This document shows positions 17,330 through 32,393 of a DNA stretch of 64,000 nucleotides, one piece after another (position 1 is the stretch's first letter; every line of letters begins with the position of its first letter). Source of the DNA: Nitrospira tepida (lineage in GTDB: Bacteria > Nitrospirota > Nitrospiria > Nitrospirales > Nitrospiraceae); contig NZ_OX365700.1 in NCBI RefSeq assembly GCF_947241125.1, positions 62,001 to 126,000 of the forward strand, given 5' to 3'. Under the pieces are notes generated by a model. It did no database searches, was not told where the DNA came from, and saw nothing but the letters and a program-made list of their open reading frames with translations. A program made the translations under genes and the position numbers.

Positions 17330-17764
17330 TTACCCATCGCCCCAGAAGAATTCGTCCCAGTTGACGGTCTTGTCCCACCACTGCTTGTGGCGCTTGACGT
17401 CGTGCAAGGCCGGCGGCGTCACCTGGTAACAGTAATCCCAGATCGCGTCCGCGACCTTGGCGCTGATCCCGCCGTCTCTGGATTCCAGCATGTCCATGAA
17501 GCGGTTCATGGCCGCGTAGGTTCTCTCCTGATCACCATTCTCGTAGGCGTGACGCACGACGTGGAGTTGGTCGAGATAGATCTCAAACCTCGTGGATTCC
17601 CCATTGACGAGCGCAGCCCCCTGCTGGGCCACCACGAACCCCGTCAACTCCTCAAGCCATCCGTCCCGCGGCACCACAGACCCTGATTCGCCGCTCACCG
17701 GAAGGAGGAGGATCGCGGCTACGAGGCCAGCTCGCCACATCGCCTGATTGAATGTCGGCTTCAT
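17330..17764 (-). CDS. Exported protein of the MNRFMDMLE family, copy 1
   Basis: A 144-residue protein with an N-terminal signal peptide (LVAAILLLPVSGESG) and a helical mature part. Shared family features are WLEELTGFVV, AAMNRFMDMLESRDGGI at about 85-100, and the motif C-x8-H-x4-H (Cys112, His121, His126) ending in an aromatic tail (WWDKTVNWDEFFW). Six copies occur in 17.3-30.2 kb. The invariant Cys and two His could bind a metal, which is inference. I do not recognise the family. It is the second gene after the cupredoxin gene at 17931-18419. Confidence 0.8.
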   Translation of the reverse strand: MKPTFNQAMWRAGLVAAILLLPVSGESGSVVPRDGWLEELTGFVVAQQGAALVNGESTRFEIYLDQLHVVRHAYENGDQERTYAAMNRFMDMLESRDGGISAKVADAIWDYCYQVTPPALHDVKRHKQWWDKTVNWDEFFWGDG

Positions 17765-17930: not shown

Positions 17931-18419
17931 TCACCGCGACCCAACGAAATAGATGTGCCCGCCCAGATGCCAATCCTTGTGCAGCGGACACCAGACGCGG
18001 AACAGCAATCCCGGGCCACTCACGCGGGCCCCCTCGAACTGCGCCGTGCTCACGATGATGCGCTTGGTCTCACCCGGAGGCACGCTGACACGAATGGGCT
18101 TCAAGTGGTAGACCATTCCGGCTTCCTCCCCGGGCGCCAGCGCTTCCGTGCTTTTTTCCGCCGTCATCTCAAACATGCCTCGGACAGCGAACGCGTGCTC
18201 TTCCTTCGTGGGATTCTCCAAGATAAACGTGAGCCCGCCCTTCAAGTCCTCGTCGTCCATCATCACCTGGTTGGGCTGCCAGATCGCCCACCTTGGAGGC
18301 ATCATCTCCGAGGCCACCCATCGAATCTCGCCTGCCTGTGCCGTCTCGCCGGCGAATAAGCCGACAAGGAAGACGACGGCAAGGCCTGCCGCATAGCCTA
18401 TGTCTTTCCATTTCCTCAT
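17931..18419 (-). CDS. Periplasmic cupredoxin-like protein, family A, copy 1
   Basis: A 162-residue exported protein; start 18419 follows a GGAGG site and a signal peptide ending near TAQAGE. The mature part is beta-rich with the family A pattern: LTFILENPTKEEHAFAVRGMFE (first putative Cu ligand His), an LKPIRVSVPPGET strand, and a C-terminal loop WCPLHKDWH with Cys, His at +3 and another His at +7. This is a plausible type-1 or nitrosocyanin-like copper site. It is the first gene downstream of operator copy 1 (18592-18617), about 170 bp away. Its closest relatives are the four other family A copies in the window. Confidence 0.8.
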   Translation of the reverse strand: MRKWKDIGYAAGLAVVFLVGLFAGETAQAGEIRWVASEMMPPRWAIWQPNQVMMDDEDLKGGLTFILENPTKEEHAFAVRGMFEMTAEKSTEALAPGEEAGMVYHLKPIRVSVPPGETKRIIVSTAQFEGARVSGPGLLFRVWCPLHKDWHLGGHIYFVGSR

Positions 18420-18591
18420 GGCCCGTCCTCCTATCTCACCGGATCTCCGTTCTCGCACACCGACGATCCTGAGCGGGTGAGTGTGCACGGCACCACCGAC
18501 TGCTGACGCTCACCTCCTTTCCCGTGCCTCCCGTTCAAGACCCGCCGAGTCGTGTTCGCAACTCCACCATATGGTCTGGCATGGTCGCGCA

Positions 18592-18663: not shown

Positions 18664-19371
18664 TCAGGGAGCGGTGGGCGGACTGGTGCGCGCTAGTCGG
18701 CATGGCAGCGAGCCGGTCCCCGGAGGAAAGGCGATCGCGAGGGCCTGGAGCCGGCTGTGGGCGCCCAGTTTTGCAAGGATGTGTTGGATGTGATTGCGCA
18801 CGGTCTTGGGACTAATGCTCAGGGTCTCGGCGATGCGCGCGGATGTGGCGCCGGTGGCTACCAAACGAAGGACTTCCCGCTCCCGTTCGGTGAGCGGGAG
18901 GGTTGCCGGGATGTCCGGCGGCGAGTCCGGCCGGATTTCCGCTACGGGCGATCCGGGAGATCCGAGCACGACTTGCAGCTCCTGTACCAAGTGTCGGGCC
19001 CGCACTTGGTTGGTGATATCTCGAAACAAATGGGCGATCCAAAAGACGTTCGGTTTGCGGGAGGGGACCGGCAGCGTGCTCACGTTCAACCAGAGGAGGC
19101 GGCCGTCCTTCGTTCGTGTCTGCATGTCGAACTGTCTGACCCCGCCGCCGCTTCGGATGCGGCTCGCGATCGGGCAGGTCGGCGAGCACAGGGGTTGACC
19201 GTTCAGCGTCTCACCGCGAATGATCTCACAGCAGGGACGGCCCATGACCTCCTGGGCGTTGAACCCCAGCAAGCGTTGAGCGACTCGATTCCAGAACGCC
19301 ACCTTCCCGTCCTGGTCCACCACCATGGCGCCCTCAGCCGCCCGTCCCAGCATGGCGGTGAGCTGTTTCAT
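18664..19371 (-). CDS. PAS-LuxR family transcriptional regulator, copy 1
   Basis: A 235-residue regulator. An N-terminal PAS domain (about 5-125) starts with EGAMVVDQDGKVAFWN and carries three cysteines in GRPCCEI and PLCSPTCPI that are also present in the second copy. A C-terminal LuxR-type HTH ([25 protein letters not shown], about 170-225) follows. There is no receiver domain, so the PAS domain is the likely sensor, perhaps through its cysteine cluster. It lies just upstream of operator copy 1 and its target genes. It is a paralogue of the protein at 24133-24837. Confidence 0.88.
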   Translation of the reverse strand: MKQLTAMLGRAAEGAMVVDQDGKVAFWNRVAQRLLGFNAQEVMGRPCCEIIRGETLNGQPLCSPTCPIASRIRSGGGVRQFDMQTRTKDGRLLWLNVSTLPVPSRKPNVFWIAHLFRDITNQVRARHLVQELQVVLGSPGSPVAEIRPDSPPDIPATLPLTEREREVLRLVATGATSARIAETLSISPKTVRNHIQHILAKLGAHSRLQALAIAFPPGTGSLPCRLARTSPPTAP

Positions 19372-19695: not shown

Positions 19696-20139
19696 TTAGC
19701 CCGGCCACCGGACGCCTTCAGGCGCTCGGGGCTGTTCAGTTTTGGGCGGTCCGCTATGTCGTTCCACGTCATGGAACTGTGCGGGGGTCACGAGATTGCA
19801 AAAGTTGAACAGCTCATTCGCCGCCACGCCGGGAATCCCTCCCTCACGAGCCTCCAACATGTCCATGAACCGATTCATGGCCAGATAGGTCGCATGGATG
19901 TCCCCTGCCGCGTACGTTGTCTGTACCAGCCGTACCTGGTCGAGGTAGAGATCCCAATCGGCTCTCGGATATTCCTTCTTGTAATAGGCGTCCCCCTTGT
20001 AGAAGATGATGGCGCCGTGGATGTCGTCAATCCAGGTGAAGGGGCGCGAATCTGCCTGTACAGCCATCGGTGCCAGCACGCAGGCGAGTCCCGCAACCAG
20101 CGCCATCGCCGTCATGCTTATGTGAGTGCCGTGTTTCAT
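19696..20139 (-). CDS. Exported protein of the MNRFMDMLE family, copy 2
   Basis: A 147-residue protein; the start at 20139 follows GAGGTG and gives a clean signal peptide ending near PMAVQAD. It retains LAMNRFMDMLEAREGGI and the motif C-x8-H-x4-H in FCNLVTPAQFHDVERH. The C-terminus differs from copies 1 and 3: the aromatic tail is replaced by a proline-rich end (PPKTEQPRAPEG). The middle (IIFYKGDAYYKKEYPRADW) is also divergent. Eighth and last of the genes in the minus-strand block that starts at 23824. Confidence 0.78.
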   Translation of the reverse strand: MKHGTHISMTAMALVAGLACVLAPMAVQADSRPFTWIDDIHGAIIFYKGDAYYKKEYPRADWDLYLDQVRLVQTTYAAGDIHATYLAMNRFMDMLEAREGGIPGVAANELFNFCNLVTPAQFHDVERHSGPPKTEQPRAPEGVRWPG

Positions 20140-20189: not shown

Positions 20190-20633
20190 TCACTCCTCCC
20201 AGAAGAACTGCTCCCAATCCACGCGCTTGTCCCACCATTCCTTATGTCGTTTGACGTCATGCAAGGACGGTGGGGTCACCTCGTAGCAGTAATCCCAAAT
20301 CGCATCGGCGGCCTTGGGATTGATGTCCCCTTCTCGGACTTCCAACATGTCCATGAGGCGGTTCATGGCCATGTAGGAGCCGTTCCAGTCACCTCGGTCA
20401 TACAGACTCCGCACCAGGGTGACCTGGCCGATGTAGGGATCGAACGATCCTGGCTCATCCTTGGCCTGGGCGATTCCTCGCTGGACGACGACAAAGCCGG
20501 TCAGTTGATCCACCCAGCCTGCCGTGCTTGCAGGACTGGCTCCCGACTTGAGCGGCGTCAGGAGCAATATCGCTCCAAGGAAACCAGGCGCCAGGGCTGC
20601 GATGAGCGATCTCTGGCAAACAATCCGGTCCAT
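20190..20633 (-). CDS. Exported protein of the MNRFMDMLE family, copy 3
   Basis: A 147-residue protein with a signal peptide (LIAALAPGFLGAILLLTPL). The mature part is close to copy 1 and to the frameshifted copy at 29767: WVDQLTGFVVVQRG, SYMAMNRLMDMLEVREGDI, then CYEVTPPSLHDVKRH and a WWDKRVDWEQFFW tail. Putative metal ligands are the Cys and two His of C-x8-H-x4-H. It lies about 90 bp after the cupredoxin gene at 20722, the same neighbour relation as copy 1 and the 29767 copy. Confidence 0.8.
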   Translation of the reverse strand: MDRIVCQRSLIAALAPGFLGAILLLTPLKSGASPASTAGWVDQLTGFVVVQRGIAQAKDEPGSFDPYIGQVTLVRSLYDRGDWNGSYMAMNRLMDMLEVREGDINPKAADAIWDYCYEVTPPSLHDVKRHKEWWDKRVDWEQFFWEE

Positions 20634-20721: not shown

Positions 20722-21201
20722 CTACGGGACCATCCGGATCGTCCCCCCAAGATGAACGATCCGGATCGTTCCGCCCGGATCACGATCCCCTCTATGCAAG
20801 GGGCAGAAGAATCGAAACTCTGTTTCGCGGTCTGAGTGAACTTCTTGGAACGGCTCCGTGGCGATCACTGCCCGAATGGTTTCCTCGGGCGCGATCGTGA
20901 CCCGCAAGGGCCTGACATTCAGCACTCCATTTTCATCGACCATCTGTTCCTCAAGGCCCTCGACAAAAAACACATGCGTGCGGGCCGTCGGGTTCTCCAG
21001 GATGAAGAGTAATCCCCCTCTCAAGTCCGTTTCCCGGTGAATGACCACCTGGTCAGGCAGCCAGGCCGCGCTGTTGTCCGGCAAATCCTGCACCGTGAAG
21101 TGGAACTCACCGCCATGGGCGCCCTGGCTGGCTGCCAGGCACCAGGTCAGCACGAGGGGCAGAACCCTCGCCACTACGAATCGGTTGGCGACTGTACTCA
21201 T
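20722..21201 (-). CDS. Periplasmic cupredoxin-like protein, family A, copy 2
   Basis: From the ATG at 21201 the protein is 159 residues with a signal peptide ending near GAHGGE. Family A features: AAWLPDQVVIHRETDLRGG, LENPTARTHVFFVEGLEE and the C-terminal loop FFCPLHRGDRDPGG, with Cys and His at +3 but Asp where copies 3 and 4 have the second His. Odd feature: the end is duplicated (GGTIRIVHLGGTIRMVP), caused by a short repeat in the DNA at about 20732-20770. A longer start at 21255 lacks a ribosome site. Confidence 0.78.
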   Translation of the reverse strand: MSTVANRFVVARVLPLVLTWCLAASQGAHGGEFHFTVQDLPDNSAAWLPDQVVIHRETDLRGGLLFILENPTARTHVFFVEGLEEQMVDENGVLNVRPLRVTIAPEETIRAVIATEPFQEVHSDRETEFRFFCPLHRGDRDPGGTIRIVHLGGTIRMVP

Positions 21202-21266
21202 GGCCGCAAATGCTCTCCCTTCGGTCTCTCCAGGGTCTTCTGCAAGGAGGAACATCTGATCAGCCG

Positions 21267-21734
21267 CTACGGCACCACCCGGATCGTTCCCCCTGCGTGG
21301 GCGTCTCCCTTATGGAGCGGACAAAAGAACGGGAACTGCTCCTCGCCTCTCATGCCGTCGATCGCGCCTCCCGGCGATGCGAACTGCACTGTGCTGATTT
21401 GTACCCTCACTGTATCTTCCTGGGTCACGTTGATCCGTAACGGCTTCCTTGTGAGTTCTCCGCCCGCACCCATCGTTTCTTCGAACAATCCGTAGGCGGC
21501 AAACGCATGGGTGCGATCCGTCGGATTATCCAGCACAAACACCAACCCGTCCTGCATCTCCGTGCTCCGGTGAATCACCACCTCCTGCGGCACCCACAGG
21601 GCCCGCTTGTCTCCGATCTCCTGCACCACAAAGTGAAACTCCGTGGCCCTGGCCGGGTTCCAGCACCCCAGAGCGCCGGACAAGGCCACGAACGCCAGCC
21701 CAACCAGGCCGGCTATTGGTGAACCAGCTCGCAT
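21267..21734 (-). CDS. Periplasmic cupredoxin-like protein, family A, copy 3
   Basis: A 155-residue exported protein, nearly colinear with the plus-strand copy at 28699-29157. Signal peptide ends near PARATE. The mature domain shows RALWVPQEVVIHRSTEMQDG, NPTDRTHAFAAYGLFEE and FFCPLHKGDAHAGG. The last loop has Cys, His at +3 and His at +8, the spacing of the Cys-His-His copper ligands of nitrosocyanin. The fourth ligand position would be the His of RTHAF. A copper role is inference; the fold is a confident cupredoxin-type guess. Confidence 0.8.
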   Translation of the reverse strand: MRAGSPIAGLVGLAFVALSGALGCWNPARATEFHFVVQEIGDKRALWVPQEVVIHRSTEMQDGLVFVLDNPTDRTHAFAAYGLFEETMGAGGELTRKPLRINVTQEDTVRVQISTVQFASPGGAIDGMRGEEQFPFFCPLHKGDAHAGGTIRVVP

Positions 21735-21763
21735 GCGACATGCCTCCAGGCTAGAAGACCCCC

Positions 21764-22258
21764 TCAGCCGCCGCCGATTTCTCCTCTGGTTTCGATGACA
21801 TACAGCTCCCCTTTGACTTCGGGGTGAATGTCACACCACAGCGCATGGCGAATGCTCTCCGCTCCGCCCGTCGCTGGATCGAAATTCGACGGCGCGGTTG
21901 CAAAGTGCAGCGTCAGGGTCTTTCCCGGCTCGACATGGAACGACGTGAAGTTCTTCCCGCGCACTTCCGTCCCGCCCTCCATCCGGACCGGGAGGTCCTT
22001 GAACAGTCTTGACGCGAACCCATGGGTCACCGTATTCAGGTTGCGGACCACGATCGTCGTCTCATGTGACGGCATCGTGAGTCCCATAGTTTCATACCCG
22101 TGCTGCCGATCCTTGATCGTGATTTCCACCTTCGACGGCGGCGCCCCCATGCCCGGGGCTTGTGCAAACGCCTCTCTCGCTCCCATGCCGAGCAGCGTTA
22201 CCGCCGCCAGCGCGAGGGGAACGGCTAATACTGGGGTGGTGTGTCCTCTGATTTTCAT
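21764..22258 (-). CDS. Periplasmic cupredoxin-like protein, family B, copy 1
   Basis: From the ATG at 22258 (strong AAGGAGG site) the protein is 164 residues, with a signal peptide LAVPLALAAVTLLGMGAREAFA. Family B pattern: VEITIKDRQHGYE, a VVRNLNTVTHGFASRLF segment with the first putative ligand His, and HALWCDIHPEVKGELYVIE with Cys and His at +3. This resembles a type-1 copper site without the usual axial Met. It is separated by 134 bp from another family B gene upstream. Confidence 0.8.
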   Translation of the reverse strand: MKIRGHTTPVLAVPLALAAVTLLGMGAREAFAQAPGMGAPPSKVEITIKDRQHGYETMGLTMPSHETTIVVRNLNTVTHGFASRLFKDLPVRMEGGTEVRGKNFTSFHVEPGKTLTLHFATAPSNFDPATGGAESIRHALWCDIHPEVKGELYVIETRGEIGGG

Positions 22259-22392
22259 GATGGACCTCCTTGTCTCGAAACATGAACTGCTCACGGCTGA
22301 ACTTCTCATCACCATCCGTTCCTGCCCTCCGACAGGATCTTCACGTCATCACCTCCCCTCTCTGACGGACTGTTGACTCCACGTACTAACCC

Positions 22393-22869
22393 TCAACCTC
22401 GGCGCTCGATGATGAACAGCTCCCCCTTCACATCCGGGTGCATGTCGCACCAGATGACGTGACGCACCAGCGGGCTCATCATCGTGAGAGGGGCTTCCGC
22501 TGATCCCTTCGTGAAATGGAGCGTCATGGTCTTCCCCGGGTCCACACGGAACGCCGGGCCATCCTTCCCCGCGACCTGATACCCATCGCCTTCAAGGTGG
22601 ACCGGTGTGTCCTTGAACAAGGGGGAGTAAAATCCATGCGTGACCCCGTCTTCATTGCGGACCACGATGGCGGTCGGATTCCCCTCTCGCCCGTAGCCGG
22701 TGACATGGAACTCCATCTTCTTGATGGACACTTCGATCGTCAGTTCCGGGAGTCCCTTTCCCGCCGTGGCCGCGTCACTCACGGCCATTCCCCCGCCTAC
22801 CAGCACACCAAGCATTAACGCCGTTGACCAGCACGTTGCTGTCAACGGAATGTTTCCCATCGTTCTCAT
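22393..22869 (-). CDS. Periplasmic cupredoxin-like protein, family B, copy 2
   Basis: A 158-residue exported protein with a very good AAGGAGGTG ribosome site. The mature domain has IEVSIKKMEFHVTGYG, VVRNEDGVTHGFYSPLF and HVIWCDMHPDVKGELFIIE. Putative copper ligands are the His of THGF, and the Cys and His of WCDMH; a His four residues before the Cys is also conserved in the family. The most divergent family B copy. Its 5' end is overlapped by the abnormal 3' extension of the gene at 22775-23332. Confidence 0.8.
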   Translation of the reverse strand: MRTMGNIPLTATCWSTALMLGVLVGGGMAVSDAATAGKGLPELTIEVSIKKMEFHVTGYGREGNPTAIVVRNEDGVTHGFYSPLFKDTPVHLEGDGYQVAGKDGPAFRVDPGKTMTLHFTKGSAEAPLTMMSPLVRHVIWCDMHPDVKGELFIIERRG

Positions 22870-23332
22870 GGCACACCTCCTTTCTGAAGGCGGTCAGAAC
22901 AAACTGCCTGAAGAGACCGTCGGATGTCCCGAACTGGTCTCGTTTGAATTTCTCAATGTGTCGCGACACGTCGTGGTACTGGGCCGGCACCACGACGTAG
23001 CAAAAGTCGAAGAGCCAGTCCGCTGTCGCTGCCGGCACGCCATTCTCCCTGGCTTCCAACATGTCCATGAACCGGTTCATCGCCTTGTACGTCGCCTCGA
23101 CATCCCTCCGTTCGAAGTGGGTTCGGACCACCTGAAGCTGACCGAGATAGGGTTCCCACCTGACGCCTGGATAACCGCCTCCACCCCGCCGTTCGATCAA
23201 CACGGCGTTCGTGATGGCGTCGATCCAATCGTTGTCGGCCTGATGGAGGGAGGCCGATGTCGACGCTATCGCTCCCGCCGTGGCGGTCAGTACTACCAGC
23301 CCTCCCAGCCAGTTCATCAGCATCCGTGTCAT
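22775..23332 (-). CDS. Exported protein of the MNRFMDMLE family, copy 4, with aberrant C-terminus
   Basis: From the ATG at 23332 the frame is 185 codons, longer than the about 145 of its relatives. It has a signal peptide, YKAMNRFMDMLEARENGV, and C-x8-H-x4-H in CYVVVPAQYHDVSRH. The family sequence ends near EKFKRDQFG, after which the frame runs on about 45 residues, through the ribosome site and 95 bp into the next gene. The extension looks like the result of a lost stop codon or a frameshift. The conserved core is intact, so the protein may still work. Confidence 0.7.
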   Translation of the reverse strand: MTRMLMNWLGGLVVLTATAGAIASTSASLHQADNDWIDAITNAVLIERRGGGGYPGVRWEPYLGQLQVVRTHFERRDVEATYKAMNRFMDMLEARENGVPAATADWLFDFCYVVVPAQYHDVSRHIEKFKRDQFGTSDGLFRQFVLTAFRKEVCHENDGKHSVDSNVLVNGVNAWCAGRRGNGRE

Positions 23333-23406
23333 GACCCGCCTCTTCCCTCTGTCGGTGCATTCTCTTCCCTTCCCCATTGGCCGTTCGCTTGACCGTTCCT
23401 ACAGGC

Positions 23407-23824
23407 TCACCCCACCGGACGAACCGGCCCGCCGAACTGATGCTCCTTGAACCTCTCGATGTGACGCGAGACATCATGGTACCTGGCCGGCGTCACGGCG
23501 TAGCAGTAATCAAAGAGCCAATCAGCACTGGCTTCTGGATCCCGTTCTCGCGTTGCTCGAGCATGTCCATAAAGTGATTCATCCCTCATAGTCATAGGTG
23601 GCCTCGATATCCCCTCTCCGAAAATGCGCCCGGACTTCTTCCACTTGAGCCACATATGGCGCATAGGTTCCCCAGAACGGCCCCTGGTTCAGTTGCTCAA
23701 CGAGGACGGCATTCATCATCGCATTGAGCCAATCGCCATCCGTAGAAGAAACCACGACCGGTCCTCCAATGAGGACGACCATGAAGCCGGTCATCCCCAC
23801 GAGGATGGCCATTGTTCTCTTCAT
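23407..23824 (-). pseudogene. MNRFMDMLE-family gene broken by two frameshifts
   Basis: Three frames together rebuild a normal family member: MKRTMAILVGMTGFMVVL to IEATY in one frame (stop at 23579), MNHFMDMLEQRENGI in a second, and ASADWLFDYCYAVTPARYHDVSRHIE in the third. The C-x8-H-x4-H motif survives in the last piece. Two indels are therefore needed, which suggests a real pseudogene rather than one sequencing error. It would have been the first gene after operator copy 2. Confidence 0.8.
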
Positions 23825-23952
23825 GCTCGCTGCCACCCACATCCTGTCCTCCGCTCCCCGTGCTCATCACGGCATCCGCTGAATGGCCCTGGCCAATCTC
23901 TGGCCCGTGATCCATTTCCACCTTTACCGTAGTCACCCCCGATGCCCTCGAA

Positions 23953-23978
23953 CAATGAGATGGCGGCATCATTTTGGA
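23953..23978 (-). promoter_or_regulatory. 26-bp operator-like element, copy 2
   Basis: On the minus strand it reads CCAAAATGATGCC, then GCCATCTCATTG. It matches copy 1 at 19 of 26 bases, with AAAATG and CTCATTG in the same positions. It lies between the second PAS-LuxR gene and the first gene (23824) of the eight-gene minus-strand block. Confidence 0.65.
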
Positions 23979-24132
23979 GGTGGGTTGGTCTCACCAGGGC
24001 GAGCAAGGCGATCCTGTTTCAAGGTCGCTGACACAGCGAACTGAGCAGGAGGCGTTCCGGGATAATCCTGGCCGGGATGGAGAGCGAGGCCCGAACTCAC
24101 CGAGAGAGAACGGCTGTCAGCCCGTCCGGAGC

Positions 24133-24837
24133 TTACTTGAGAGCAGGTGACGCACCAGGAGGAAATGCGAGGGCGAGGGCCTGGAGACGCGTATGCGCTC
24201 CAAGCTTTTCGAGAATGTGCTGGATATGGTTCCGTACGGTTACGGGGCTGATAAAGAGCGTGTCCGCGATGTCTTTGGAGGGCTTCCCAGCCGCGAGCAG
24301 ACGCAGCACCTCCTTCTCCCGGTTGCTCAACGGTAAGGCGCTCCAAATAGCCGGAAGCTCGCCAGTCTCCCTCGAAGTTGACCGTCTCTTTGTGGTTTCA
24401 GAAACCGGCTTGCCCCCAGGGGGCGACAGCAGGACATGGAGCTCCTCGGCGAGCCGGCGTATTTTGATCTGCTTCGTGATGTCTCGAAACAGATGCATCG
24501 CCAGAAACCGGCCCTTCTTCCGAGAAGGCACGGGAAGCGAACTGATATTGATCCAGACGACACGGCCGGACTTCGCATGGGTCTGCATATCGTAGTTGCG
24601 CACCCCGCCACCGCCGGCGAGCTTGCGGCCCATTGCGCAGGAGGCCGAACACAGCGGTTGGCCGCCCAATGTTTCCCCGCACAGGACCTCACGGCAGGGT
24701 CGCCCGATCACGTCCTGAGCGCGAAATCCCAACAATCGCTCGGCGGCCTTGTTCCACAGGATCACCCTGCCGCCTTCATCCACCAGCATGGCGCCGTCGG
24801 CGGTGCGAGACAGCATCGTCATAACCGAGCGATCCAT
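24133..24837 (-). CDS. PAS-LuxR family transcriptional regulator, copy 2
   Basis: A 234-residue paralogue of the regulator at 18664-19371. The PAS domain begins DGAMLVDEGGRVILWN and keeps three cysteines in PCREVLCGE and PLCSASCAM. The C-terminal LuxR HTH (LSNREKEVLRLLAAGKPSKDIADTL) has an ISPVTVRNHIQHILEKLGAHTRLQ recognition region almost the same as copy 1, so both may bind the same operator. It lies 155 bp upstream of operator copy 2. Confidence 0.88.
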   Translation of the reverse strand: MDRSVMTMLSRTADGAMLVDEGGRVILWNKAAERLLGFRAQDVIGRPCREVLCGETLGGQPLCSASCAMGRKLAGGGGVRNYDMQTHAKSGRVVWINISSLPVPSRKKGRFLAMHLFRDITKQIKIRRLAEELHVLLSPPGGKPVSETTKRRSTSRETGELPAIWSALPLSNREKEVLRLLAAGKPSKDIADTLFISPVTVRNHIQHILEKLGAHTRLQALALAFPPGASPALK

Positions 24838-24871
24838 ACTTCCTCACGGGCATCGAGTCTGGCTTGTTATT

Positions 24872-24902
24872 ATTATACATAAGGCAGCCCGATCGCCCGC
24901 AA
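24872..24902 (-). promoter_or_regulatory. Possible sigma-70 promoter of the PAS-LuxR gene
   Basis: The minus strand has a perfect TATAAT (rc of 24872-24877) in an AT-rich patch 35 bp before the gene start. A weak TTGCGG lies 19 bp further up (24897-24902). The spacing is long, so only the -10 is convincing. Confidence 0.35.
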
Positions 24903-25083
24903 TCGCCCGTTCGGTGGCAGTGGCTCTTGCCCTATTCCACGAGGGATCGAGATGAAGCACCCGATGGGGCAATCGAGGGATCCGCGGTTCCCGCTGAACC
25001 ATGAAAGGCGTTCGGCTGAGTCTTTGTCATAGGAACGACACCGGCACCCCTCTACCGTCAACGACCCTCCCGTGAACGTCGCG

Positions 25084-25437
25084 TCAGAATGTAAGCACTT
25101 TGTCGGAATCCACCACCCACTGTGCCAACTGGCTCATCGTGCCGACCTCGATGCCTTCGATCAGGGCCACCTGTTCCAGTCCACGAGCCTCTACGCAGGT
25201 GCCGCAGGCTCTCACTTCCCCCTGCTTGCCCATCACCGCTTTGAGCATCCGTTCGACGTTGTAGTACCCCTGCGGCGTGATCTGCGCCGGCATGGCCGCA
25301 GTGACGGCGTCCGCCATCAGAAAGACGCGGATCTCTCCTTCGGCATGCTCCTGCTGCAACTTCATCGCAAGGCGCAAAGCGTTGTACACCTTCTCGGAGC
25401 CATAGGGGGCATCATGAAGAATCATGAGAAGCTTCAT
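25084..25437 (-). CDS. DsrE-family protein
   Basis: A 117-residue small alpha/beta protein of the DsrE/DsrF/YchN type: MKLLMILHDAPYGSEKVYNAL start, IRVFLMADAV second strand, and CGTCVEARG with two cysteines at about residues 78-81. Relatives act in sulfur transfer or as small redox proteins, but many are uncharacterised. The start at 25437 follows GAGGTGA. It stands alone between the PAS-LuxR gene and the hydroxylase gene, all on the minus strand. Confidence 0.85.
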   Translation of the reverse strand: MKLLMILHDAPYGSEKVYNALRLAMKLQQEHAEGEIRVFLMADAVTAAMPAQITPQGYYNVERMLKAVMGKQGEVRACGTCVEARGLEQVALIEGIEVGTMSQLAQWVVDSDKVLTF

Positions 25438-25517
25438 ACGTCACCTCATTGGTTCGTTTCCTGCGTACGCGGCTCACAGGCCGTGCTGACAGGTCATCCA
25501 GGGCTCCCACATCGCCG

Positions 25518-26336
25518 TCATCGATCATGGCTCAACGGATAGTCACCCGGCCTTCCCGTAAAGGGAAGCAGGAGCATTCCCGTGAGTGTCAAACGGGCTG
25601 GGTCCCTGAACTGTGTCAGGCCGAGTGTCATCCGCTCGTGACCATCGTTCGGCTGAAGCCGATAGGTTCCCAGCAGCCGATCCCACCACGGGAGGTTGAA
25701 CCCGAAATTCGTATTGGTCTCTCGTGGCAGGATCGAATGGTGAATGCGATGCATGTCGGGGGTCACGACGATCCAGCGAAGGCATCGGTCCATCGTGGCC
25801 GGGAGTCGTACGTTACTGTGGTTGAACATGGCGGTGGCATTGAGCAGCACCTCGAAGCTCAGTACGGCCTGGGGCGATGGGCCCAGGACCGCAATCGCGG
25901 AGACCTTGATGAGCATCGACAGGACCACCTCAACGGGATGGAACCGGAGCCCTGTGGTGACATCGCAGTCCAGGTCGGCGTGATGCATCATGTGGACGCG
26001 CCAGAGCAGGGGGACGGCGTGGAACATCACGTGCTGCAGATACAGAACAAGATCCAGTGCGACGACGGCCAGCACTAGTTCCAACCAGTTCGGCCAACTG
26101 AGATGGTTCAGAACGCCCCAGTGTCGCTCCGCAGCCAGCATGGATGCCCCGACCGCGCCGGCAGTGAACAATAGGCGGACGGCGGCGGCGTCTATGACCA
26201 CGATGGAGAGGTTGGCGACCCACCGTCGCGCCTTTGAGGTGGTCAGGTGACGCCGGGGGATGAGCACCTCCCCAAATGCCATCAGCCCCAGCACTCCGAG
26301 GAACGCCGATATTCTAATCAGCATCTCTTCCGCCAT
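25518..26336 (-). CDS. Sterol desaturase / fatty acid hydroxylase family membrane protein
   Basis: A 272-residue integral membrane di-iron enzyme. Four or five hydrophobic segments surround the three histidine clusters of the family: HVMFH, HMMHH with HADLD, and HRIHH. FGFNLPWWDRLLGTY near the C-terminus is also typical. The substrate (lipid, carotenoid or hopanoid-related) cannot be told. The start at 26336 follows GAGGGTG; a GTG six bases upstream is possible. Confidence 0.88.
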   Translation of the reverse strand: MAEEMLIRISAFLGVLGLMAFGEVLIPRRHLTTSKARRWVANLSIVVIDAAAVRLLFTAGAVGASMLAAERHWGVLNHLSWPNWLELVLAVVALDLVLYLQHVMFHAVPLLWRVHMMHHADLDCDVTTGLRFHPVEVVLSMLIKVSAIAVLGPSPQAVLSFEVLLNATAMFNHSNVRLPATMDRCLRWIVVTPDMHRIHHSILPRETNTNFGFNLPWWDRLLGTYRLQPNDGHERMTLGLTQFRDPARLTLTGMLLLPFTGRPGDYPLSHDR

Positions 26337-26521
26337 GACCACACCCTCACAACACTATACCGGACTGTCCCCCGTGTAGGGGGTGAACTCTCGACCAATT
26401 ATTCTTACCTGGAGACCGCCTTCACGCTCCGGCCAGGTCATCTCCCTGGCTCTTCCATGTGCAACGGATGGAACGCGACAAAGGTCCAAGAGAGCATGCC
26501 GACTGGTGCGACCACCTCATC

Positions 26522-26547
26522 GCAAAAATGGTGTGTCCATCTCATTG
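26522..26547 (+). promoter_or_regulatory. 26-bp operator-like element, copy 3
   Basis: The plus strand reads CAAAAATGGTGTG followed by TCCATCTCATTG. Aligned without gaps to copies 1 and 2 it shares AAAATG, the CC near the centre and CTCATTG. It points toward the plus-strand cupredoxin block whose first gene starts at 26896, about 350 bp downstream. No regulator gene lies next to it. Confidence 0.55.
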
Positions 26548-26857
26548 CTGGGAGATGAACGGCTGATTATGCTCTGAGCATGGATGAATCGGATCATGCG
26601 CACACGCGAGCATCTCGAGAACGGGAGTGAGGCGGGAGCGGCCGATCGGCTGGTAGATCAACTTATCGCGAGAGGGTGCCGCCGATGACAAGTCGTCGCC
26701 GCGGCTTATTCTCAGTGAGCAGATAGCGTGTCGGTCCGGCGAGGTCTCCGTCGGAGGAAGGAGGTGAAGGGCGGGTCGGCAAGTTGGGGGATGAAGGAGG
26801 TAAGTGAGTGAAACGGCGAAGAAGGAACAGGACAGCCACTTGTAATGGTAAGAGGAG

Positions 26858-26876
26858 CGGATGCCGCAAGCATCCG
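26858..26876 (+). promoter_or_regulatory. Leader hairpin just upstream of a ribosome site
   Basis: CGGATGC (26858-26864) pairs with GCATCCG (26870-26876) across a 5-base loop, ending 4 bases before GGAAGGAGAG of the gene at 26896. The same hairpin stands at 28000-28018 before the paralogue, so it is conserved and may protect the mRNA or adjust translation. Confidence 0.5.
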
Positions 26877-26895
26877 GAGAGGAAGGAGAGTTCCC

Positions 26896-27408
26896 ATGAG
26901 AATGAGAGGATGCCATAAGACCATGTTGGCAGTCCCCCTCGCGCTGGCGGCGGTCGTGATGCTGCCGGGAACAGGGCCGGGGCGCGCCGATGCCCAGGCG
27001 CCCGGGATGGCCCCTCCGGTTCAAGAGTTGACCATCGTGATCAAGGACCGAGACCATGGGTATGAGCTGTTGAAGGGGACGGCTATGGCGGGGTCGCTGA
27101 TGAAGATCACCGTTCGTAACGAGGACTCGGTCACGCATGGGTTCGCCTCGCGTCTCTTTGACGGGATCACGGTGAAGATGGACGGTCAGGGCAAGGAGGT
27201 CGCGGGAAAGAAGGTCAAGAGCTTTCACCTTGACCCAGGACAGGTCATGACGCTCACCTTCACCAAGCCGTCGGCCATCGAGCCCGCGGGACTGTACGGA
27301 GGGAACGAAGCCTATACGCAGTACCATACCATCTGGTGCGACATTCACCCCGAAGTGCGTGGTGAGTTGCTGGTCGTTGAAACGTTGGGTGTGCCAGGAG
27401 CGGGATAA
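26896..27408 (+). CDS. Periplasmic cupredoxin-like protein, family B, copy 3
   Basis: A 170-residue protein from the ATG at 26896 (GGAAGGAG site). Signal peptide: MLAVPLALAAVVMLPG to ADAQA. The mature part is nearly the same as the copy at 28036: VQELTIVIKDRDHGYELL, VRNEDSVTHGFASRLF, and HTIWCDIHPEVRGELLVVE. Putative ligands are His of THGF, and Cys and His of WCDIH. First gene of the plus-strand block. The two genes, their leader hairpins and their terminators form a tandem duplication. Confidence 0.82.
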   Translation: MRMRGCHKTMLAVPLALAAVVMLPGTGPGRADAQAPGMAPPVQELTIVIKDRDHGYELLKGTAMAGSLMKITVRNEDSVTHGFASRLFDGITVKMDGQGKEVAGKKVKSFHLDPGQVMTLTFTKPSAIEPAGLYGGNEAYTQYHTIWCDIHPEVRGELLVVETLGVPGAG

Positions 27409-27449
27409 GTTCTCCGCTTGATTGAGACGAGATTTGTCGAGAGTCCGCT

Positions 27450-27496
27450 GCAGCCCCGGTCGGCGCCCGTGTTTCAAGAAGCCCGGCCGGGGCTGC
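27450..27496 (+). terminator. Rho-independent-type terminator hairpin
   Basis: GCAGCCCCGG (27450-27459) pairs with CCGGGGCTGC (27487-27496), followed by GGCATTTC. It lies 42 bp after the family B gene. The same stem follows the paralogue at 28580-28622. Confidence 0.55.
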
Positions 27497-27999
27497 GGCA
27501 TTTCAGCAAACCAGCGGCAAGAGCATGAGTTCTCTTACCCTGTTGGACAAACTGTAGTGTCTGTAGTGTGCGGGCTCAAGCTCTTGGTGCTCGAACCGTC
27601 ATTTGTACCTTCCTGCCCTAGGACATAACGCGACATTGTTGCGTTTCTCCCCAGGTTCGAGCCTGGTTCTCCGGATACATGCCGAAATTACTGGGGATTC
27701 ACTGTGGCAAGGGTTTCGCACAGCGCATTCGCAGGAGCTGAGGCAATGGCAAGCATGTCGAGAACGGAAGGCCGCGGTGAAGGGATGGACGCGATGGAGC
27801 GTGGGAATGATCAGGGCAAGAGGGTGACGTCGGCGGCCTGTCATGTTGCCTTCAGTCACCTCGACGGGTACATCAAGCATCAGTCCGTCGGGCCGATCTG
27901 ATATCCGTCGCAGGGAAGGAGGTGAGGGGCTGGGGAACGACCGGTTCGAGATTGATCGAGGAGCAAAGCGACGCACAGGATATGCACATTGAAGAGGAA

Positions 28000-28018
28000 C
28001 GGATGCGGAACGCATCCG
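28000..28018 (+). promoter_or_regulatory. Leader hairpin, second copy
   Basis: CGGATGC and GCATCCG enclose a 5-base loop just before the GAGGAGGGAG ribosome site of the gene at 28036. The loop sequence differs from the first copy while the stem is kept. Confidence 0.5.
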
Positions 28019-28035
28019 CGGAGGAGGGAGACACC

Positions 28036-28545
28036 ATGAGAATGAGAGGATGCCCCAAAACAATGTTGGCGGTGCCCCTCGCGCTGGCGGCGCTGACGCT
28101 GCCGGGGCTGGGAACCGGGAAGGCGGATGCCCAGGCCCCTGGGATGGCCGCGCCGGTTCAAGAGTTGACCATCGTCATCAAGGACCGAGACCATGGGTAT
28201 GAGCTGTTGAAGGGGACGGCCATGGCCGGGTCGTTGATGAAGATCACCGTTCGGAACGAAGATTCGGTCACGCACGGGTTTACGTCCCATCTGTTCCAGA
28301 ATCTCCCGGTGAAACTGGAAGGGCAAGGCAAGGAGGTCAAGGGGAAGAAGATCAGGAGCTTCCACCTTGATCCGGGACAGGTGATGACGCTCACGTTCAC
28401 CAAGCCGTCGGACGTGCAGCGCGACGGGCTGTACGGCGGAAATGAAGCCTATACGCAGTACCACACGATCTGGTGCGATATTCACCCGGAAGTGCGCGGC
28501 GAGTTGCTGGTCGTTGAAACCTCCGGCGTCCCTGGAGGGGGATGA
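28036..28545 (+). CDS. Periplasmic cupredoxin-like protein, family B, copy 4
   Basis: A 169-residue protein, the near-identical tandem duplicate of the gene at 26896. It has the same MRMRGC start, signal peptide ending GKADAQA, and the putative copper ligands in VTHGF and WCDIHPEV. Differences cluster after THGF (TSHLFQNLPVKLE against ASRLFDGITVKMD), so the two may differ in partner or exposure. A strong terminator hairpin follows. Confidence 0.82.
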   Translation: MRMRGCPKTMLAVPLALAALTLPGLGTGKADAQAPGMAAPVQELTIVIKDRDHGYELLKGTAMAGSLMKITVRNEDSVTHGFTSHLFQNLPVKLEGQGKEVKGKKIRSFHLDPGQVMTLTFTKPSDVQRDGLYGGNEAYTQYHTIWCDIHPEVRGELLVVETSGVPGGG

Positions 28546-28579
28546 GTTGGACGCTTGAGAGGGTGGAGAGTGGACCGTC

Positions 28580-28622
28580 GCAGCCCCGGCCGGCTTGATT
28601 GTGGAAGCCAGGCCGGGGCTGC
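28580..28622 (+). terminator. Rho-independent-type terminator hairpin, second copy
   Basis: GCAGCCCCGGCC at 28580-28591 pairs perfectly with GGCCGGGGCTGC at 28611-28622. It follows the family B gene at 28036 and is homologous to the hairpin at 27450. Confidence 0.6.
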
Positions 28623-28698
28623 GGCATTTCATGGAAACGACGGAACAAGAGCGGATGGGCCCGATCACGCCGTGTGCTGAATCAGGGGATGGGATAAC

Positions 28699-29157
28699 AT
28701 GAGAAGATCGCGGCGACAACGGTTCCTCGGCGGGCCGGCGCTGGCGGTTCTGGCCGGCACCGTGGCGTTAGTCAACGTGGCCTGGGCCGTGGAGATCCAC
28801 TTTATCGCCGAAGAACGTGGCGAGAAGCGAGCCGCCTGGGTGCCTCAAGAGGTGGTGGTTCACCGCGGCACGGAGCTGCAGGACGGGCTGGTGTTGGTCT
28901 TGAAGAATCCCACCTACCGCACCCATGCCTTCGCGGCCTATGGACTCTTTGAGGAAACGATGGGCGCCAACGGCAATCTGATGACGAGACCCTTGCGGGT
29001 GACGGTGATGCCTGAGGATGAGGTTCGCGTCCAGATCAGCACGGCGCAATTTGCCACAGGCGGGACCGTGTCGGCGAGGGTGGAGGAGTTTCCGTTTTTT
29101 TGTCCGTTGCACAAGGGAGACGCGCATGCCGGGGGAACGATCCGGGTCGTGCCGTGA
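28699..29157 (+). CDS. Periplasmic cupredoxin-like protein, family A, copy 4
   Basis: A 152-residue exported protein very close to the minus-strand copy at 21267. Signal peptide ends near VAWAVE. It has RAAWVPQEVVVHRGTELQDG, NPTYRTHAFAAYGLFEE and FFCPLHKGDAHAGG, giving Cys, His+3 and His+8, the nitrosocyanin-like spacing. Together with the next two genes it repeats the order cupredoxin A, cupredoxin A, MNRFMDMLE protein, seen in mirror order at 20190-21734. Confidence 0.82.
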   Translation: MRRSRRQRFLGGPALAVLAGTVALVNVAWAVEIHFIAEERGEKRAAWVPQEVVVHRGTELQDGLVLVLKNPTYRTHAFAAYGLFEETMGANGNLMTRPLRVTVMPEDEVRVQISTAQFATGGTVSARVEEFPFFCPLHKGDAHAGGTIRVVP

Positions 29158-29192: not shown

Positions 29193-29756
29193 ATGTGTGA
29201 ACCGGTCCGGCGGTCTGAAGCGCACGAAGTCATCCGGATCAGACAGGCGGGCGCAGACCGTGGAGAGCTGGGCCGGCGGCCGTTCCTCCATCACGTCAGG
29301 GTCGCATGGCTGGGTCTCTTGCTTGGCGTAGGATTTGGGTTGACCCTCGGAGTTGGCATGCTGGGCCAACCGACTCTCAGCCTGGCCAAGGAGTTGCACT
29401 TTGTGGTGCGCGATGTCGATGGCGCGCAGGCCGTGTGGTTTCCACGCGAAGTCCTCATCTCCCGGCAGCAGGATTTGACGGAACCCCTCAGCTTCCGGCT
29501 TGAGAATCCGTCTCCTCGAACCCATGTCTTCGAGGCTCCGGGGCTGTTCGAGTCGTTTGAAGAAGGCGGCATCATGTCGGCCAGGCCCCTTCGCATCACC
29601 ATTGCGTCGGAGGAAACCCTGTTGGTTGAAGTGGACAGAGACCGCCTGGCGGACGATGTGGTCGGTTCCCAAGGAGACACGATGATCTATCGCTTTTTCT
29701 GTCCACTCCACCGGAACGATGCGGATGCCGGCAGTCGGATCAAGGTCATCCCGTAA
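29193..29756 (+). CDS. Periplasmic cupredoxin-like protein, family A, copy 5
   Basis: A 187-residue protein from the ATG at 29193, directly after a perfect AGGAGGA site. It has a long N-terminal region (about 35 residues) before the hydrophobic signal segment LLGVGFGLTLGVGML. Mature part: AVWFPREVLISRQQDLTEPL, NPSPRTHVFEAPGLFESFE and FFCPLHRNDADAGS, where Asp replaces the second His of copies 3 and 4. It resembles the copy at 20722. Confidence 0.8.
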   Translation: MCEPVRRSEAHEVIRIRQAGADRGELGRRPFLHHVRVAWLGLLLGVGFGLTLGVGMLGQPTLSLAKELHFVVRDVDGAQAVWFPREVLISRQQDLTEPLSFRLENPSPRTHVFEAPGLFESFEEGGIMSARPLRITIASEETLLVEVDRDRLADDVVGSQGDTMIYRFFCPLHRNDADAGSRIKVIP

Positions 29757-29766
29757 AGGGGGAGTC

Positions 29767-30200
29767 ATGGCACAGGCGATCAGCTCGCAAAGAAAGTGGG
29801 TCTTGTTCCTGTCCCTTCTGTTCGCCACAGCCATGCTCTGGGCGGCGATCGCCATGGCGGTCTGGTCGGAAGGTTGGCTGGACCAATTGACCGGATTTAT
29901 CCTGCTGCAACAGGGAACGGCACAGGCCAAGGCCGAACCGGGAACGTTCGATCCCTATATTGGGCAGGTGGCGTTGATGCGGAGCCTCTACGGTCGGAAT
30001 GATGTGGACAGGTCCTATCTTGCGATGAATCGACCGATGGACATGTTGGAACAGCGCGACGGAGGGATCAGCCCCGAAGCCGCCGATGCCATCTGGGATA
30101 TTGTTATCAGGTCACCCCGTCGGCGTTGCACGATGTGAAGCGCCACAAACAATGGTGGGACAAGACCGTCGAGTGGGAGAAGTGCTTCTGGGAGGAGTGA
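29767..30200 (+). pseudogene. MNRFMDMLE-family gene with a single-base frameshift
   Basis: The frame starts at 29767 with a signal peptide and SYLAMNRPMDMLEQRDGGI. It shifts at about 30101, where GATATTGTTATC replaces the expected GATTATTGTTATC. Restoring one T gives DYCYQVTPSALHDVKRHKQWW and a stop at 30198-30200, like copies 1 and 3. Without the correction it ends at 30138. This is one indel, so a sequencing error cannot be excluded. Confidence 0.75.
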
Positions 30201-30326: not shown

Positions 30327-32393
30327 ATGCCTATGCCGGAAGCCCATCCCCTTATCGAACAGTATCAGGCGCTCTTGGAGGTGTCGGAGGCGATCGCCCG
30401 GCATCCGGACCTCCCCGCGCTGCTGAAGGACCTCGCGCGACGCCTGCCCCGGATCATTCCGGTGAACTTTGTTGGGTTGTCGCTTTACGATCCGGAACGG
30501 CAGGTCATGCGGTTGCACAGTTTGGAGGCCAATGTGCCGGCCGACATCATCGGCGGGCATGAGGACGAACTCGATGCGACCCCCGCCGGCCTGGTCTGGG
30601 AGACACAGCAACCGTTGCTCATTCGCAATCTATCGGACGAACGCCGGTGGCCGCAGGTCATCGCCCGCATGCAGGAAGACGGCGTACGGTCCTGTTGTCT
30701 CCTTCCGCTGACCAGTTCCGCCCGGAAACTGGGCGTGTTGGAGTTCGCGAGCCTCCAGGCCGACGCCTACGGGAAGACCGATCTGGACTTCTTGCAGCAG
30801 GTAGGACGCCAAGTGGCCGTGGCGGTGGACAATGTCTTGAACCGGGAAGCCGCCTCGGCCTCGCAACAGGATGTGGAGCGCCAGCGCGACCGGTTCGGCC
30901 TCCTGCTCCGGATGACCAACGCAATGGTCTCCAAACTGGAGCTGCGGGAGCTGTTCAGCGCAGTGAGCCTCTCGTTGCGCGAGGTGGTCCCGCAGGAATA
31001 TGCCAGCCTGCTGCTCTACGACAGCGAGCAGAACCGCTTTCGCCTCCACGCGTTGGATTTTCCAGATAACAAAGGCCTTTTGGCCGAAGGCTTGACGACG
31101 GACGCGACCGATTCCCCTGCGGCGGTCGCCCTGCGCACCAAACGGCCGGTGGTGGCGGGAGAAGAGGAGTTGGCCGCATTCGAGCACGAAGTGATCCGGT
31201 TGCTCCTCCAGAAGGGATTCAAGTCGCTCTGCTCCCTTCCGCTGCTCTCGAAGGACCGCGCCCTCGGCTGCCTCAGCCTGGGGAGCCGCCGCGCCAAAGC
31301 CTTTTCGCCCTCCGACGTGGAATTCCTGAGCCAGGTCGCCGGCCAGATCGCACTGGCCGTGGCGAACTCCCTGGCCTATCAGGAGATCACGCAACTGAAG
31401 GACCGGCTGGCCAAGGAGAAACTGTATCTCGAAGAGGAGATTCAGACGGCCTATAACTTTGAGGAAATCGTCGGCGAGAGCAAGCCCCTCAAGCGGTTGC
31501 TCAAGCAGGTGCAGACGGTCGCTCCGACGGATTCCACGGTGTTGATTCTGGGTGAAACCGGGAGCGGCAAGGAGCTGATCGCCCGCGCGCTGCACAACCT
31601 CAGCGACCGGAAGGACCGGACGTTCGTCAAGCTCAACTGCGCGGCCATCCCGACCGGCCTTTTGGAAAGCGAGCTGTTCGGGCATGAGAAGGGCGCCTTC
31701 ACGGGAGCCATCAGCACCAAGATCGGCCGGTTCGAGCTGGCGGACCGGGGCACGATCTTTCTCGATGAGGTGGGAGAGATTCCGCTGGAACTGCAGGTCA
31801 AATTGTTGCGGGTCTTGCAGGAGCAAGAGTTCGAACGGCTGGGCAGCACCCGCACGGTGCGCGTGGACGTGCGCGTGGTGGCCGCCACCAACCGCGACCT
31901 TTCCCAGATGGTCGAGGAGCAGAAGTTCCGGAGCGATCTCTACTATCGGCTGAACGTCTTCCCGCTCACCGTGCCGCCGCTCCGGGAGCGGGTCGAGGAC
32001 ATCCCCGTGCTCGTGCGCCACTTCGTCCAGAAGTTTGGCATGCGGATGAAAAAGCGCATCGAAACCATTCCGGCCGAATCGATGAAGGCGCTTCAGCGCT
32101 ATTCGTGGCCCGGCAACGTCCGCGAGCTGGAGAACTTCATCGAACGGTCCGTCATCCTCACCGCCGGAGCGGACCTGTTCGTGCCCCTCTCGGAATTGAA
32201 ACCCCACCAGGCGGTCTCCGGGAACGGTGTCCCCACCACGCTGGAAGAGGCGGAACGGGAGCATATCCTCAAGACCCTGCGCGAGACCAACTGGACGATC
32301 GGCGGCGCGGCCGGCGCGGCGGCCCGCCTCGGCCTGAAGCGCACCACGCTCCAGTCCCGCATGCAGAAGCTGGGGATCACGAGGCCGCGATAG
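30327..32393 (+). CDS. Sigma-54-dependent activator with two GAF domains
   Basis: A 688-residue FhlA-like regulator. Two GAF sensor domains (about 20-175 and 195-360) precede an AAA+ domain with Walker A GETGSGKE at 409-416, the sigma-54 contact loop GAFTGA at 456-461 and Walker [11 protein letters not shown] Fis-type HTH (about 645-685, [17 protein letters not shown]) ends the protein. It opens promoters of the -24/-12 class. The nearby candidate target is the convergent bd-like oxidase operon, which has a -24/-12 match at 34821-34836. A fragment of a similar gene's 3' end lies at 38290-38373. Confidence 0.94.

Follow-up and report, generated by a model that had tools for sequence, protein, structure and literature searches.

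Within a 64,000-nucleotide stretch of the Nitrospira tepida genome (referred to as the window), an array of genes includes five copies of a family of predicted cupredoxins, which we refer to as family A. Array genes are named by their first coordinate within the window, larger positions given in megabases (Mb) or labeled as contig positions refer to the whole contig, and +n denotes a residue counted from the core Cys of the family A loop. The five copies are as follows:

17931 to 18488, minus strand: family A cupredoxin of the short-loop clade, with His at +7 (CPLHKDWH); loop at 17967-17990.
20722 to 21255, minus strand: family A cupredoxin of an Asp+8 clade (CPLHRGDRD); loop at 20779-20805.
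21267 to 21734, minus strand: family A cupredoxin of the His+8 clade (CPLHKGDAH); candidate N-terminal ligand His76 at 21507-21509 and loop Cys138-His146 at 21297-21323.
28699 to 29157, plus strand: family A cupredoxin of the His+8 clade (CPLHKGDAH); His76 at 28924-28926 and loop Cys135-His143 at 29101-29127.
29193 to 29756, plus strand: family A cupredoxin of an Asp+8 clade typical of Nitrospira with ammonia monooxygenase (AMO) (CPLHRNDAD); loop at 29700-29726, start codon uncertain.

The 28699 and 21267 proteins are 66% identical, and by inspection the family A proteins have signal-peptide-like N termini, suggesting that they are exported. An earlier sequence-only reading had compared the loop of these two copies, with His at +3 and +8, to the copper ligands of nitrosocyanin, and had noted Asp at +8 in 20722 and 29193 and His at +7 in 17931. 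The letters and coordinates of these motifs are correct, and the nitrosocyanin ligands that it quoted (Glu60, Cys95, His98, and His103) agree with the sequence of PDB entry 1iby. The RTHAF that it placed at the Glu60 segment occurs in 21267 and 28699; the remaining copies read RTHVF (20722 and 29193) or EEHAF (17931). Family A is not named by Pfam or NCBIfam, as all matches listed at E ≤1 fell under the curated cutoffs and belonged to unrelated families (e.g., PepX_C for 17931). The gathering cutoff of Pfam Cupredoxin_1 (PF13473) was not reached, with no family A match at E ≤1 besides one short-loop member at E 0.19, and a search of the open-access literature on these Nitrospira proteins found nothing.

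A profile built from the five window copies and run against 175 Nitrospiraceae genomes identified family A relatives in 67 of them, including Candidatus Nitrospira defluvii. In a phylum-wide sample, almost all matches lay within the Nitrospiraceae, with partial or weak matches in three outside genomes. Three further copies, all distant, lie at 4.034-4.039 Mb in the N. tepida genome (4.73 Mb, one contig). A sigma-54/GAF activator adjoins the second family A array (contig 4034727-4038694, L116), which contains CEIHKDIHLAGSL, strikingly similar to CQLHPKNIHLPGTL of nitrosocyanin.

Across an alignment of 102 family A members, the core of the putative site is nearly invariant, with the N-terminal His present in 101 (one gap), the Cys in 101, and His+3 in 100. 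The +8 position is occupied by Asp in 40 members, His in 32 (counting the short-loop members, in which the aligned "+8" residue is in fact +7 and the aligned "+6" is +5), Arg in 12, and Ala in 11. This variation is fixed by clade: when the loop columns are left out of the tree building, the four +8 states require 7 changes, compared with a minimum of 3 and a mean of 48 for shuffled labels. His is found at +8 in all 23 members of the clade that includes 21267 and 28699, and Asp or Glu in 40/40 members of the Asp groups, where the neighboring +7 and +9 residues vary freely. The 20722 and 29193 copies fall into two separate Asp groups and 17931 into the short-loop His clade, and further clades carry mostly Ala (a clade absent from the window genome) or Arg. 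Chance or misreading as an origin of the motif is ruled out by the verified letters, the conserved core among the 102 relatives, and the uniform His+8 of its clade. The idea of a graded set of copper sites in one array holds at the sequence level, in that paralogues differ at +8 and each residue is conserved within its own clade; the copper sites themselves are predicted. Two sequence variants stand apart. Members of the mostly Ala clade (L056, L057, L058, L065, and other A3-type second family A copies) have gained a further Cys four positions ahead of the core Cys (CPFFCPLH), with which a disulfide or a second site could arise. In the 17931 clade, one member (L068 9070-9669/L163) carries Arg at the His+3 position (CPLRKD), so that either the site has been lost or the assembly is in error.

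Structure prediction and superposition had been proposed to check the resemblance to nitrosocyanin. The AlphaFold2 (AF2) model of the mature 21267 protein (predicted local distance difference test [pLDDT] 89.2; predicted template modeling score [pTM] 0.84) is a Greek-key beta sandwich that superposes on solved cupredoxins, and we predict a cupredoxin fold for family A. Foldseek matched the model to AcoP (top), laccases, and nitrosocyanin. VIA-align placed nitrosocyanin in the top row (Z 11.4, 2.2 Å, 94 residues, 19% identity), followed by FtrB (Z 11.0) and a Bacillus Cupredoxin_1 protein (Z 10.9), with AcoP at Z 10.3. Because FtrB and the Bacillus protein lie within 1 Z, nitrosocyanin is not singled out by structure.

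Among the closest known systems is nitrosocyanin of Nitrosomonas europaea (PDB 1iby/1ibz/1ic0; TIGR03096), which reads NKSPISE60GF ... C95QLH98PKNIH103LPGTLNVV where family A reads NPTDRTHAF ... CPLHKGDAH(L/A)GGTIRVV. In the His clade, Cys, His+3, and His+8 align with C95, H98, and H103 without a gap through the H-x-x-G-T-[IL]-x-V strand to the protein end (last 25 columns). In VIA-align the protein ends are offset by 14 (126 to 112), and so are the Cys residues (109 to 95), as must be the case if the ligand loop has no gap. The equivalents of Cys95 and His98 are thus the near-invariant Cys and His+3, and the His103 equivalent is His in the His clade, Asp in 20722 and 29193 (Ala or Arg in other clades), and His at +7 in 17931. 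Glu60 is matched, through the common pattern N-x5-[E/H]-x-F, to the N-terminal His, so that the nitrosocyanin site implied by the sequence-only reading is not supported: practically all members have His instead of Glu60. Nor is the +3/+8 spacing diagnostic in itself, because plastocyanin has the equal spacing of Cys, His+3, and Met+8. The register is a better argument for nitrosocyanin likeness than the spacing: in family A and nitrosocyanin the fourth residue sits three positions ahead of the strand Gly (H-x-x-G-T-[IL]), whereas the canonical axial Met, as in plastocyanin (CSPHQGAGMVGKVTV) and amicyanin (CTPHPFMRGKVVV), sits two positions ahead of it.

Family A as nitrosocyanin proper is rejected, because the Glu60 position is His and the nitrosocyanin model TIGR03096 is not reached by any protein: no family A locus was among its matches in the window genome, and none of the 175 Nitrospiraceae genomes gave a score above the curated cutoff (142.85 bits), so that no nitrosocyanin was found in them. 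A related possibility is that family A and nitrosocyanin share an ancestor closer than that of other cupredoxins, with a later change of Glu60 to His. The gap-free last 25 columns and the top VIA-align row are consistent with such kinship, as are an E of 0.011 to TIGR03096 for one short-clade member and the hhalign comparison of the short-loop clade with nitrosocyanin (91%, score 41.6; best control, plastocyanin, 31.3), in which, for example, H-KDIHLAGSL aligns with HPKNIHLPGTL. However, the profile comparison involves one nitrosocyanin sequence and few controls, the structural Z scores tie with those of FtrB and the Bacillus protein, and two short-loop members match CopI (NF051440) equally in NCBIfam (E 0.012). 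Since only the short-loop clade shows a score margin, specific kinship is possible but unproven, and we consider it rather doubtful. The plastocyanin and amicyanin controls were confirmed against PDB, and the nitrosocyanin sequence was checked against 1iby; an azurin control was not confirmed in PDB at a very strict threshold and was given no weight, and a pseudoazurin control was also part of the comparison. Another cupredoxin of the same genome (L009, contig 4211775-4212020) contains CQLHPAHLGGQL with QGEHGF and weakly matches the nitrosocyanin model.

Several results weigh against the reading favored below, of copper-binding cupredoxins with a fourth position in the nitrosocyanin register. 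The whole-family profile scores nitrosocyanin (30.5) no better than plastocyanin (30.1) or two other cupredoxins of the same genome (about 30), with shuffled nitrosocyanin at ≤20.7, and the Asp clade scores nitrosocyanin at 20.0 versus 29.3 for plastocyanin. PDB sequence searches with whole-family and short-clade queries, as with single family A queries, returned no cupredoxin match. The +8 loop block of the 21267 model has lower confidence (about 75). In addition, Asp or Glu occupies +6 in 99/102 members, a better conservation than that of +8 with its His, Asp, Arg, and Ala, and Asp+6 may be the actual fourth ligand. The invariant His+8 of the His clade is itself weak evidence, because 45/123 columns of that clade are invariant. 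The site might then be a three-coordinate His-Cys-His or Asp+6 site, with the +8 residue shaping only the loop or a docking surface; Arg at +8 throughout one clade and three additional residues ahead of the GDAH motif in one His-clade member (L060) would fit this explanation. The uniformly acidic +8 of the Asp groups amid variable neighbors and the ligand His of nitrosocyanin in the same register speak against it, and we regard it as less probable than the reading favored below.

Family A shares the fold, N-terminal His, Cys, and His+3 with plastocyanin and other type 1 cupredoxins, and the fourth ligand of plastocyanin is also at +8, but no family A clade has the Met at +6 to +8 that would complete a type 1 (blue) site. 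The ligands of AcoP, the green cupredoxin of Acidithiobacillus (PDB 7z3b/7z3f), are His, Cys, His, and Met in a longer loop, and family A differs from it in having no Met. AcoP is a single-domain respiratory cupredoxin (PMC4059628). CopI, a green cupredoxin of copper tolerance, combines a His-Cys-His-Met site with His/Met-rich segments (PMC13308877), neither of which is found in family A. Replacement of the axial Met in cupredoxins turns blue sites green or red (PMC4059628). With His in place of Glu60, family A is predicted to form a His3-Cys or His2-Cys-Asp site, nearer to azurin Met121His than to red copper. This azurin, an engineered mutant of type 1.5 according to Kroes 1996 as cited in PMC4059628, would be the nearest counterpart of a His3-Cys site in the His clade, although in family A the +8 residue is a candidate ligand.

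The sequence-only reading had introduced nitrosocyanin as a protein of ammonia-oxidizing Nitrosomonas, and a tie to ammonia oxidation is not borne out. No AMO was found in the window genome, which encodes three NxrB-like beta subunits below the model cutoff. AMO is absent in 19/21 His-clade genomes and present in 26/31 Asp-only genomes (Fisher P = 9e-8, uncorrected for shared ancestry). Because AMO is absent here and in most His-clade genomes, we reject the link for the His clade. The comammox genomes analyzed in the N. inopinata paper lack nitrosocyanin (PMC6478695).

Family A is paired with a second family of cupredoxin-like proteins, family B, in an array that forms an imperfect inverted duplication of B-B-A-A-C:

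21764 to 22315, minus strand: family B cupredoxin-like partner (CDIHPEVKGEL), with an amicyanin-length loop and Val at the axial Met place.
22393 to 22869, minus strand: family B cupredoxin-like (CDMHPDVKGEL).
26896 to 27408, plus strand: family B cupredoxin-like (CDIHPEVRGEL).
27952 to 28545, plus strand: family B cupredoxin-like, 83% identical to 26896.

Family B lies directly upstream of family A at 20/21 His-clade loci and 24/37 Asp-clade loci, and a tetraheme cytochrome c lies ≤3 genes away at 19/37 Asp-clade loci; in the window genome, this cytochrome is encoded at 4.44 Mb. Outgroup members of family B keep Met at the axial place (CDLHxxMKGEL). The nearby cytochromes, together with an invariant His-Cys-His core like that of redox cupredoxins, argue against family A being copper-storage, copper-delivery, or non-copper metal-binding cupredoxins instead of electron carriers. 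Such roles, which we think improbable, would be in keeping with the Bacillus Cupredoxin_1 protein, which was solved with zinc as well as copper, with FtrB among the closest folds, and with the weak profile match to CopI, which handles copper tolerance (PMC13308877).

We favor, with moderate confidence, a reading of family A as Nitrospiraceae-specific, duplicated, exported single-domain cupredoxins that each probably bind one copper, with a fourth position that would tune redox properties. The sequence family, the predicted fold, the clade-fixed +8 position, and the gene pairing are direct results, and export, copper as the bound metal, ligation by +8, electron transfer, and redox tuning are inferred. 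Copper would be held by the invariant His that stands where nitrosocyanin has Glu60, the Cys, and His+3, and the fourth position, in the His103 register, would be clade specific: His (21267 and 28699), Asp/Glu (20722 and 29193), mostly Ala, or Arg. The +8 residue would tune reduction potential and open coordination, and the proteins may act as periplasmic electron carriers or in copper handling, beside Val-axial family B cupredoxins and, in many relatives, also beside the tetraheme cytochrome c. More speculatively, a single cupredoxin scaffold may have given rise in the Nitrospiraceae to a natural series of swapped ligands: a His3-Cys site, a His2-Cys-Asp site in which carboxylate and His trade places compared with nitrosocyanin, and sites lacking a fourth ligand. 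Each type would be fixed in its lineage, the His type occurring mainly in genomes without AMO and the Asp type mainly in genomes with it, and family B would act as a high-potential Val-axial partner. As of 2014, nitrosocyanin was the only well-characterized natural red (type 2) cupredoxin (PMC4059628). A nitrifier family with the nitrosocyanin loop register and a naturally swapped fourth residue would allow an engineering-free test of color, potential, and reactivity; such a natural series could shed light on copper-site tuning in cells. Family A may also lead to uncharacterized electron carriers of the periplasm in a group of environmental importance.

The remaining genes of the array and its surroundings encode a third family, family C, and transcriptional regulators:

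17330 to 17764, minus strand: family C small exported helical protein.
18664 to 19371, minus strand: PAS-LuxR transcription regulator.
19696 to 20115, minus strand: family C small exported helical protein.
20190 to 20633, minus strand: family C; AF2 model all-helical, pLDDT 90.6.
22775 to 23332, minus strand: family C small exported helical protein.
24133 to 24837, minus strand: PAS-LuxR transcription regulator, adjoining family B/A arrays in other Nitrospira.
30333 to 32393, plus strand: GAF and sigma-54 activator neighboring the array, with a related gene next to the genome's second family A array.

The invariant residues of family C are W, Y, MN..M.ML, C, V.P, and HD..RH, and the 20190 model had no PDB fold match at E <0.6. 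Two further copies (29767-30138 and 23407-23842) are split by frameshifts; part of the array is therefore decaying. In both LuxR regulators the PAS domain contains three or four clustered Cys (PCCEIIRGETLNGQPLCSPTC in 18664), which may serve in redox or cluster sensing. A cytochrome bd-like oxidase subunit I (32662-34545; Pfam E 3e-15) adjoins the array and the sigma-54 activator.

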